Source: Trichosporon coremiiforme
Lineage: Eukaryota; Basidiomycota; Tremellomycetes; Trichosporonales; Trichosporonaceae
Length of the DNA stretch: 64,000 nucleotides
Direction of reading: 5' to 3'
NCBI GenBank assembly: GCA_039545355.1
Contig: BCJJ01000016.1
Coordinates: 372,001 to 436,000 of the forward strand
Translations under genes and position numbers: made by a program
Notes under the pieces: model-generated
The model's input: only the letters and a program-made list of their open reading frames with translations
Database searches by the model: none
Told to the model about the DNA's origin: nothing
In this document: positions 14,585 through 19,100 of the stretch, one piece after another
How the letters are laid out: each line of letters opens with the position of its first letter
Position numbering within the stretch: position 1 is the stretch's first letter

Positions 14585-15436
14585 GTGTCCGAGCGGAGTG
14601 CGAGCGAAGCGAGCACGGAGCGAGGACGCACTGCTTAGCGACAGCGCTGTAAGCGCTGCCAGTCGTCGACCCACCCCCTTTTTACCAGCGCCTAGCCATA
14701 GCCCTTTTACCACTCAGTCTATGTCTTGACGTTCTCTTCTCTTTCAGTTAATCACAGTGCCTCTCATTCCAATGCCCGTATGAATAATAGATGAGATTGT
14801 CCCGATCAAGCGTCCAGCGTTGCATAGCGAATGCAGTGCGGCGAGCGTCTGTCTCAACGTGCAACAGAGGGTGGATCAAGATGTTGTAACATAAACTATG
14901 ATGCGTTGAAAGATGACTGTTGGGTCTGTTATTAATATTCCGAACGAACTGAGCGCTTGTTTCGATCACCCGGTGTTGGAACGCGGGTGTCTTTAGACTG
15001 GGCGGGGTGGTGTCCATCGGCCGGCTGTGCTGCGTACAACGTGCTGCGTCAGCAGCACCCCAGTACTGCAGTACAAGTTGTGCACACTGCAAAAAGCGCA
15101 GTGCGGGCCCAGCCACAGGTTTGTTGGAAACCCGGGCCGTTACAGAACGACCAACCTACCCAGAGCGTCTGTTGGAAGACAATAACACATGCTTTTACGA
15201 TGAACCTGTTGGAGGAATGATGTGATGCTTTGTTTGGATGATGGGAGCGCAGGGCCCATGAGTCAGGCCGTTAGCGACCTCCTTCGCGGGGGTCGCACGC
15301 GGGTATGTTGGGTTTTCTATTACTTCTCTTCTTTCTTCTTACGCCTTCATTCTTCACAGGGGGCAGTTGGACAGAGGGCGAGGTGGACAGGGAGGCTGAG
15401 TCTCACGCCTCGGGCCGCCCTCGCGCCTGACGGCGC
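14585..15436. other. Convergent intergenic region
   Basis: About 850 bases between two genes that converge. Contains short CAGTACTGCAGTAC-like palindromic words near 15060-15075 but no gene. Confidence 0.5.
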
Positions 15437-18400
15437 TCAAGCATACTTCTGCATAAAGTCCTCGTGGAACTTCTCAATCTTGTCCATCATGTCCTCGGCC
15501 CCTGGGGCCAGGCACGTCACGCGGAGATGGTGCGTGCCGTCCCTCTGTCCGAATCCCGATCCGGCGACCGTGCAAATGCCCGTCGCGTCCAGGAGCGCAA
15601 GGGCGTAGAACACGTCGGCTTCCTTGCCCGCCTTGCGTGCCGCTTCCTTCGCCTTGGCCGGAATCTCGAGCGTCGGGAACAGGTACATTGCCCCGTCTGC
15701 TGGCTGGCACTGGACTCCGGAGAGGCGGTTGAATCGTTCGGCCATGTAGGCGGAGCGCTGGCGCATGCCGTCGTGAATCGCGGCGGCCTCCTCCTTGTAC
15801 GTCTGGTAGCTCGGAGATCCTTCGGCGGGAGGAGAGACCAACAGGTCGACGCCGACCTGGCCCGAAGTGGGCGCGCAGAGCGCAATCGACGCCATCTTTT
15901 GGAGCAAGTCCTCGACGTCAGAGTCGAGATTGACAGCTTCCAGATAGCCTCCGCGGCGGCCGCATTCGCCCGACACGCCCTTGCTGATAGAGTGCAGAGA
16001 TACCAGCTCGACCTCGTCGCAGATTGGCTGGGGCATGGAGCGCACGACGCGCTTGAAGCTCGCGAACGGGCGGCGGGCGGGGTCGTACACGTTGGTCTGG
16101 TAAACTTCGTCGGCGAGCAGGAGGAGGGATTCGTCGTAGCACAGCTGCACGATTGCGCGCATGTCGGATTCGGAGAGGCAGGAGCCCGTGGGGTTGCCCG
16201 GGTTGATGACGACGAGCATCTTGAGGGGCGTGCCGGCGCTCTTGGCGCGGGCAATCGCCGCCTTGACGCTGTCCACGTCGAGCGCCCAACCACGAGACTC
16301 GTCGAGGTGGTACTCGACCGGCGTAGCCTCGAGGTGCGCCAATGTGGCAGTGTAGAGCGGGTACTGGGGAATGGGGATGAGCGCTCCGTCTCCCGGCCTA
16401 AGTGCAATGCCCATGAGCATGGCGACGGCCGGCGTCGCGCCGCCAGTGAGGTAGATCTGATCGGGGTCGGCGGGGAAGCCGTCGCGACGCTGGAGGAACT
16501 GCGCGACGCGCTTGCGGATGGGCAGGCTGCCCTTGGAGCCAGTGTAGGCACCAATGGAGCCAAACTCGGCCACGAGCTGCGACGCCTTCTCGAGCGCGTC
16601 GGCGGGGAAGACTTGCGACGCGACGGGATGCGTGATAAGAGCGGGGTACTCGACGAGCGCGGCGACTTGGCGCCAGTACGTCAGCGGTCGCTGTCCCAGA
16701 ACCTTGTCCTGCGGATTGCCAATGTTGCAGTACGTGATGTGCTCAAAGGGCAGCGTGTTGCCGCCCGCGAGCTCGCCCGACAGCTGTGCCGCCAGGTCGT
16801 CGGCCTTGATTGACAGCTCGCCGCGGACAGCGTACTCGACCGCCTGGACGACGGGGTTCACCGTGTCGGCCGTGAGCGCCTTGTGCCTGCTGCCGGGGGA
16901 CGAAGTGCCCGACGAGCTAGGGGAGAGGTTGAGACAGCTGTCGTGAATGACGTTGAGGGCCTTGACGGCGTCCTTGTTGGCAATGACGCACGAAATGTTG
17001 ATCTCGGACGCGCCCTGCGAGATCATCTCGAGGTTGATGTCGGCACGGGCGAGCGCGCCAAACATTGCGCTGGCGGATCCAATGGCGTTGCGCATGTTGC
17101 GGCCGACGAGCGAGAGAATCGCCATGTCGTGCGACACGGTAATTTCGCCAATCTTCTCGAGGTCGCGCACTAGGCGCTCCAGGCGCCGCGCGTTGCCAAA
17201 GTCCTGCATCGCCATCGAGACGTGCACCTCGGACGTGGAAATCAGGTCGACGACGACGCCGGCGCGGTCGAGCGTGCCAAAGATGCGCGCGAGGAAACCG
17301 TGCGAGATGGTCTTGCGGTTGCTGTGAATGTTAAGGACGAGAATCTGGTCCTTGATCGTCACGGCCGTGGGGAGGCGGTCGCTCTCGTGGTTCGGGTCGT
17401 GCTGGGGCGGCTTGGTGTCGAGGCCGCGGGGGAACTCCTGGTCGGGCAGAATAATGGTGCCCTGGCCCTGGGGGTTCTCGACGTTCTTGATGCGAATGGG
17501 GATGCGCGCACGAATGACCTGCTCCATCGTGAAGGGATGAATGACTTCTGAACCATAGTAGGTCAACTCGGCGGCCTCATCGGGCGTGATGCTGGGCACG
17601 AGGCGGGCAGACGGCACCTTGCGCGGGTCAGCCGTGAAGATGCCGTCGACCTCCTTCCAAACCTGCAGCTCCGAGGCGCGCGTACCAACGGCACAAAGAG
17701 CAGCGCAGAGGTCGGTGTATCCGCGCCCGATCTGGGCGAGAAGCGAGCCCGGGACCGGGCCGAAGAAGCCCGTCACGACGGGGATGCGCGTGCCGCACTC
17801 GCGCAAGCGCTCGCCGAGGCGCAAAGCGAGCTCGTCGTAGAACGCCTGGCCCAGCTGTGACACGCCCTGGTCGCCGCTCGCGGTCAGGCCCGAGTCGGTG
17901 ACGGACGACATGGCCGCGTCGACAATGTTGTCGAGCACGACGAGCTCGGCGTCCACGCCGCGGTCGCGCAGCGCGGCCGCCACAATCTTGCACGCGAGGC
18001 GCTCGCCCGTGCCGATAATCGAGTCCTGAGATCTGGGCGAGATCTCGTCAATGATCTGGAAAAGTCAGTACACGTACACAGCATGTGGGGCGCTCGGGCC
18101 AGGCCAAACCAAGGCTGTGTCACTATTGCCCGCCTGGCTGACGTCAAACTTACATGAGCAGCGCTAAGGAAGGATCGGAGAGCCTCGCAATCACGCTCAA
18201 TCTCCTCCTCGAGCTCGTCCCGGAGGGGACCCCGGCGGAGGGCCTGGCGGGCGGCGTCGAGGTGTCCGCGCTTGATGGTGTCGACAGTGGTGTGGAAGCG
18301 GGGCTCGAAGCTCTCCTCCTTGGCGGTGGGCGTGTCGGGCCCACTGTCCGAGGGCGAGCGGGTACGTCCGCTGAGCGGCTGGAAGGGCGATGGCGAGGCA

Positions 18401-19100
18401 CATCGGCTCGAGTCGTCCTTGGCGTCCTTGAGGCTGGAGAGGGACGAGATCATGCTCTGGGAGAAGTATCCCGACCCCACGCGCTTGGGGTACAGCGGCG
18501 TCTGAGCGCCAGACGCCGACGTCGAGTTTTGCCTCGCGCTGGCGGGGGCGAGAGCCTCGCGCGACGCCTGGAGCAGGAGATTCGTTGTGCCGAGCGCCTT
18601 GGTCTGCGTGCTGCGCGCACTGCATACAATCGCAACCTTGTTATTCGGGAGGTACGACCTGGGGCGTTAGTGGCCTGGACAATGCGGGGGCAGTGGGGAG
18701 GCGATGGCCCGATGAAACCGGTGCCAGTCGAGTCGGTCAGGTCGGCGAGCGACACGAGCCGGTGAATGCCGGGCCTGGTAGCAGGTGGCAGACGCGCGAT
18801 GGGCTCTCTTTTTCATATCCGGGGTGACGGAATGATGTGATCGATACCAGACAACGACTTTTCCTCGCCATGGCAAGTACACTTTGCCGCCACTGGCACC
18901 GATGGCGAGTACAACATGCACTAGTGTACTCACTCTACGATCTCTGTGATGGAGTCGAGCGACTTGCCGACGCTGGTGCCACCATATTTTTGGATGAGCC
19001 AGGGAGTGTTCTCATCTGCCGAGTTGCGATAGAGGGGTTCCTCGTAGTAAGCGTCCTTGGGGGTGGAGGCGCCCGAAGACGGGGACATGGTGGTGACCAT
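15437..19100 (-). CDS. HOM3-ALT1: Bifunctional aspartate kinase-alanine aminotransferase fusion
   Basis: Exons 19100-18934, 18658-18154, 18055-15437 give 1,096 residues; introns 275 and 98 bp. Residues 1-~598 are a full fungal aspartate kinase: KYGGTSVG (38-45), VAIVCSARS, GFFGPVPGSLLAQIGRGYTD, WKEVDGIFTADPRKVPSARL, ELTYYGSEVIHPFTMEQVI. Two ACT domains follow (VVDLISTSEVHVSMAM, ~493; INLEMISQGASEINISCVI, ~563), the usual threonine-sensing part. After a ~16-residue Ser/Gly/Pro linker, residues ~616-1096 are a full-length alanine aminotransferase: EYAVRGELSIKADDL, ITYCNIGNPQ, VVINPGNPTGSCLSESD, LLLADEVYQTNVY, and HSISKGVSGECGRRGGY with the PLP lysine at ~916. The junction lies inside one uninterrupted 2.6-kb exon. 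The kinase catalyses the first step of Thr/Met synthesis; the transferase exchanges alanine/2-oxoglutarate for pyruvate/glutamate. The transferase half lacks its own targeting peptide. I do not recall this fusion from other fungi. Confidence 0.93.

Follow-up and report, generated by a model that had tools for sequence, protein, structure and literature searches.

To our knowledge, known fusions of aspartate kinase (AK), which catalyses the first step towards threonine and methionine, link steps within one pathway. Their partners, homoserine dehydrogenase and diaminopimelate decarboxylase, are other enzymes than alanine aminotransferase (ALT). In oomycetes, the excerpted text of PMC2705460 describes an AK-homoserine dehydrogenase fusion and a dihydropicolinate reductase-diaminopimelate aminotransferase fusion, and none of the oomycete fusions in that excerpt joins AK to an aminotransferase. 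A search of the open-licence literature returned no description of an AK-ALT pairing, or of an AK in Trichosporon with such a fusion. Here we describe a gene from a 64,000-nucleotide window of the Trichosporon coremiiforme genome (contig BCJJ01000016.1) in which AK and ALT are genuinely fused in one chain.

The gene lies on the minus strand, to which all features below belong unless stated otherwise, and is modelled with three exons and a product of 1096 aa; splice sites were placed by GT-AG signals, reading frame and the agreement of two gene copies, the second being on contig C2. Exon 1 (18934..19100) opens with the start codon, encodes residues 1-55 and ends two bases into codon 56, at a GTGAGT donor; it includes the kinase motif KYGGTSVGKS (residues 38-47, 18989-18960), and 154 of its 167 bases are identical in the C2 copy, gap-free and with the frame kept. 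Intron 1 (18659..18933, GTGAGT...CCCCAG) is followed by exon 2 (18154..18658), which encodes the remaining kinase N-terminal part and a Ser/Pro-rich insert, and by intron 2 (18056..18153, GTAAGT...TTCCAG). Aligned to the C2 copy, the introns contain 61 and 17 gap columns, respectively, and the exons 0. Exon 3 (15437..18055, 2619 bp including the stop) encodes residues 225-1096, which cover the bulk of the kinase and its ACT region, a linker of 16 residues (LSPSSSGTSSPGSRHK) and the ALT in its entirety. The original prediction of a single 2.6-kb exon is thus correct from residue 225 to the end, but residues 1-224 reside on two upstream exons. The predicted continuity of the AK-linker-ALT frame was confirmed by a minus-strand open frame of 875 codons (18064 to 15437), within which five Pfam families were found in one frame (AA_kinase, 95.7 bits; ACT_9, 101.4 bits; ACT_7, 50.7 bits; ACT, 45.4 bits; Aminotran_1_2, 153.9 bits). 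At the protein level, AK and its ACT domains (residues 1-600) are joined by a linker (residues 601-616, 16880..16927), the Ser/Gly/Pro segment of ~16 residues that had been anticipated and which has the same length in the C2 copy, to a full-length ALT (residues 617-1096, 15440..16879, supported by Aminotran_1_2 and PDB alignment). The codon of its PLP lysine, the SKG lysine K916, lies at 15982-15980.

Even with its exon-3 part alone, the AK half scores 287 bits against the NCBIfam model TIGR00657 asp_kinases (cut-off 208.7). Both K-x-GGTS and GRG(Y/G)(T/S)D are present, as KYGGTSVGKS at residue 38 and GRGYTDLCAA at residue 334, aspartate kinase motifs as in S. cerevisiae Hom3. Among the C-terminal ACT domains, ACT_9 (PF22468; 16940..17116, residues 317-375 of the exon-3 frame) reaches 101.4 bits against a 27-bit cut-off, ACT_7 also exceeds its cut-off, and the Pfam family ACT is matched in two stretches. 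The Ser/Pro-rich insert occupies about 89 residues (88-176) of the kinase N-terminal region in exon 2 (approximate coordinates 18399-18133); with a dN/dS of 0.038 between the copies, it is conserved to a degree near that of the catalytic parts and is possibly regulatory.

The window belongs to a 42.0-Mb assembly of 134 contigs. The second gene copy, on contig C2, is fused identically and has the same three exons and 1096 codons. The two products agree at 1058 of 1096 residues (AK 588/600, linker 13/16, ALT 457/480), corresponding to 98.0% identity in the AK half and 95.2% in the ALT half, and 2914 of 3288 coding bases are identical, with indels in both introns and none in the exons. A diverged copy with the same fusion rules out both a false join in the assembly and a frame that is open by chance. 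Furthermore, blocks of C2 are collinear with window positions 4917-37967 on either side of the gene (74-85% DNA identity in the stretches compared), which indicates a large duplicated block rather than a local copy. The separate ALT and aspartate aminotransferase genes are also paired, at 95-96% protein identity. T. coremiiforme and T. ovoides are hybrid genomes with parental protein divergences of 7% and 17% according to the excerpted text of PMC6642101, and the paired genes and duplicated block fit a hybrid Trichosporonales genome; should each block come from one parent, the fusion predates the split of the parents.

Comparison of the copies by the NG86 method demonstrated that purifying selection is acting on both halves. 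Over the whole gene, dN is 0.029 and dS 0.519 (dN/dS 0.056). When the insert is left out, AK (510 codons) has a dN/dS of 0.038 with differences by codon position of 13/6/137; for ALT (480 codons) it is 0.063 with differences of 25/15/164. By protein identity between the copies (95.2% versus 98.0%), the ALT half is changing somewhat faster than the AK half, which weighs against the bifunctional reading given below. Exon 1 yields a dN/dS of 0.139, and the linker 0.124 (dS 1.33) over 17 codons, too few to carry weight. Synonymous divergence is uneven along the gene (dS about 0.38 in AK and 0.69 in ALT, versus 0.31 between the mature parts of the two separate ALTs), which could stem from gene conversion, codon bias or expression. 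A chance open frame in GC-rich DNA, in a region where long antisense frames do exist (e.g. 460 codons at 15431-16813, plus strand), was ruled out by full-length homology and by the dN/dS of the minus-strand frame.

The proposed genome search for a separate HOM3-type gene detected no AK sequence outside the two fusions when the assembly was queried with the full-length protein. In profile searches, both of the genome-wide ACT_9 matches are the fusions themselves, and the eight AA_kinase matches fall at six places, i.e., the two fusions, a pair on contigs C8 and C22 and a group on C3 and C4. Of the six matches outside the fusions (L011-L016), family scoring covered L011 (from the C8/C22 pair) and L014 (one exon, from the C3/C4 group) and assigned these to acetylglutamate kinase and glutamate 5-kinase, respectively, and a separate AK elsewhere was rejected on these scores. 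As a stand-alone AK was not detected in the assembly, the fusion would carry the whole AK function. Within the C8/C22 pair, L011 and L012 have identical scores (97.7 bits) over the same profile span and are more alike than other pairs, maybe from loss of heterozygosity. The homoserine dehydrogenase domain has three matches in the assembly, a pair on C28 and C11 and a third on C6 (C6:1117951-1118574).

The parallel search for an ALT1-type gene did recover separate ALT genes, on C11 and C23, each encoding 517 aa in two-exon models. Their N-termini (MFSAMRSRASLLSG... and MLFSAMRSRAPASLLG...) contain 7 and 5 K/R and 0 D/E in 33 residues and look like mitochondrial presequences, with targeting judged here from residue composition rather than by a predictor; the fusion begins MVTTMSPSSG..., with 2 K/R and 5 D/E in 35 residues. 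After the presequence, the separate enzymes continue with MTHKKALTLESINP, which aligns to RHKALTADTVNP just past the fusion linker, so the fused ALT begins at the start of the mature separate enzyme. It had been proposed that fusion deprives the aminotransferase of its own mitochondrial targeting; the fusion indeed lacks a presequence, but the cell retains a mitochondrial-type ALT as the separate pair. Given the presequences of that pair, the fused ALT is an additional, probably cytosolic copy.

We consider it likely, judging from sequence, that the AK-ALT fusion is a bifunctional cytosolic enzyme that ties an ALT to the sole detected AK at a 1:1 dose. A HOM3-type fungal AK with C-terminal ACT domains would have gained a complete ALT behind a short Ser/Gly/Pro linker, the acquired enzyme lacking a mitochondrial presequence and probably having arisen by duplication within the ALT lineage of the cell itself. 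Both activities would be present, the protein would reside in the cytosol, and the AK half would still be subject to ACT-mediated feedback by threonine. Joining the two may chiefly serve to fix their dose at 1:1 and to place a cytosolic ALT beside the enzyme that opens threonine and methionine synthesis. The AK and ALT reactions are without a shared intermediate, and the likeliest metabolic logic would be nitrogen supply: ALT could exchange amino nitrogen between alanine and glutamate, from which it could reach aspartate through the separate aspartate aminotransferases, and AK would use that aspartate.

A bacterial source for the join was also considered. Among 50 bacterial AK loci (L019-L068; 501,614 bases, mostly with 5-kb flanks), none carries the AK-ALT join, and all 50 match the AK half only. 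A class I/II aminotransferase occurs near AK in one of the 50 (27% identity, ~3 kb away); this lone neighbour was taken as chance, and a bacterial origin of the join was rejected. Viral contigs returned no match to the fusion. The AK half itself is 44-50% identical to 35 of the 50 bacterial AKs (mostly deltaproteobacterial, SAR324 and myxobacterial) and 26-35% identical to the other 15, a likeness that offers a lead on the origin of the fungal-type AK.

The preferred reading of a bifunctional enzyme depends on the state of the ALT half. This half aligns over its full length to barley ALT (3tcm, 419.3 bits) and human ALT2 (3ihj, 419.2 bits), its top two PDB matches among the best 60 of 98 matched sequences. 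Its identity is 57% to the separate ALTs, 44.7% to human and 44.6% to barley ALT; the separate ALT on C11 is 47.4% and 43.7% identical to human and barley, so the fused and separate enzymes are about equally conserved relative to these references. Against the prokaryotic NCBIfam model for ALT (NF006230, cut-off 534), the fused half scores 147.4 bits, below the cut-off; the separate ALT, represented by its last exon, likewise falls short at 126.6 bits, so this model is not decisive for eukaryotic ALTs.

As an alternative, the ALT half could be a structural or ligand-sensing appendage (binding, e.g., PLP, alanine or pyruvate) that aids kinase assembly or regulation. The separate ALT pair, human and barley ALT have 155 columns in which all agree; 15 of these are altered in both fusions, and the phosphate-loop region beside the cofactor, around TGGATPAV, differs from all four compared ALTs by S765T and G767A; Y807H is a further change. 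In the mirror comparison, the fusions agree with human and barley ALT in 154 columns, of which 15 are altered in both separate ALTs. A precedent for such an appendage is yeast ScAlt2, which, in the excerpted text of PMC5960717, has intact catalytic residues and binds PLP but has lost ALT activity; activity of the fused half is consequently not readable from its motifs. Alignment with human and barley ALT nevertheless places K916, NPGNPTG (842), ADEVYQ (872), SKG...ECGRRGG (ECGRRGG at 921) and the C-terminal HLR arginine (HHLRVT, 1066) in the fusion. These are cofactor and carboxylate motifs, and together with KYGGTSVGKS and GRGYTDLCAA they bear out the expectation that both halves keep their key motifs. 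Against an appendage speak this retention, the ALT dN/dS of 0.063 and an overall conservation equal to that of the separate ALT. The kept lysine and motifs and the similar conservation argue for a working aminotransferase, though they do not prove it, and we regard a purely structural or sensory role as unlikely.

The ALT half could also have switched substrate and form, e.g., aspartate from oxaloacetate, feeding AK directly. Among the rivals, this would best give the pairing pathway sense, and barley ALT is able to form aspartate with about 10% of the efficiency that it has for alanine (excerpted text of PMC5960717); this is weak support, and the sequence around the PLP lysine, SISKGVSGECGRRGGY, is the same in the fused and separate ALTs. 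Moreover, two aspartate aminotransferase gene pairs (C4/C2 and C8/C22) already exist, so the fusion is not required for aspartate, a point that also tells against the bifunctional reading, and the idea that the fused ALT stands in for a missing aspartate aminotransferase was rejected. A switch of substrate therefore appears quite improbable. The PF00155 search that accompanied this analysis scored 9 of 59 candidates, the fused and separate ALTs not among them, and does not constitute an aminotransferase count; an unpaired aspartate-aminotransferase-like frame (38% identity) was observed at C36:110164-111051 within a 674-codon open frame.

We think it very improbable that the fused gene yields separate products, through protease cleavage of the linker or alternative transcripts. 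The linker is flexible, Ser/Pro-rich and the fastest-changing part of the protein (13 of 16 residues kept), as might suit cleavage, but neither copy shows a stop, a frameshift or a change of length there, and the frame lacks an ATG between residues 568 and 770, which makes an ALT translation start near the linker impossible. An assembly or sequencing artefact merging two genes has a practically negligible chance, being ruled out by two diverged copies (2914/3288 coding bases) that are both fused, on different contigs and with collinear flanks.

If the fusion is a bifunctional enzyme, threonine bound at the ACT domains might alter how the attached ALT assembles or how active it is, such that alanine, glutamate and pyruvate exchange would follow the threonine pool. 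We hold this extension to be doubtful, a long shot from domain architecture; if true, two old enzymes would together provide a new kind of cross-pathway allostery. Independent of such control, the sole detected AK is joined to an aminotransferase of another node, with selection seen on both halves, and the locus offers a clean test of what drives the fusion of enzymes that have no intermediate in common, whether dose, location or allostery across pathways. Relative to animals, AK is fungal-specific, so its architecture has practical value for work on inhibitors in this group, which includes opportunistic pathogens. The fusion also bears on metabolic models of oleaginous yeasts, in which AK and ALT figure as separate reactions.

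Among known systems, ThrA, MetL and the plant AK-homoserine dehydrogenases are built like the fusion, with AK and ACT domains N-terminal and a second enzyme of amino-acid metabolism C-terminal in one chain. Their partner belongs to the same pathway, whereas that of the fusion is a PLP aminotransferase at the alanine/pyruvate node, and Homoserine_dh is not one of the five Pfam families matched by the exon-3 frame. The AK/diaminopimelate decarboxylase architecture (NF006515) likewise combines an N-terminal AK with a C-terminal PLP enzyme; the fusion matches this model at AK positions 110-467 of 861 (172 bits, below the cut-off of 802), and its own C-terminal enzyme is a fold class I aminotransferase (Aminotran_1_2) rather than a decarboxylase. 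The oomycete fused enzymes are eukaryotic fusions from the same metabolic area as AK-ALT. With HOM3, the single fungal enzyme, the fusion has the kinase and ACT architecture in common, but it ends in an ALT. Among the eukaryotic ALTs (human ALT2, barley ALT; yeast ALT1/ALT2), the fused half aligns over its full length with the human and barley enzymes (45% identity) and shares their key motifs; unlike the eukaryotic ALTs, it has no presequence and is instead attached to the C-terminus of an AK.
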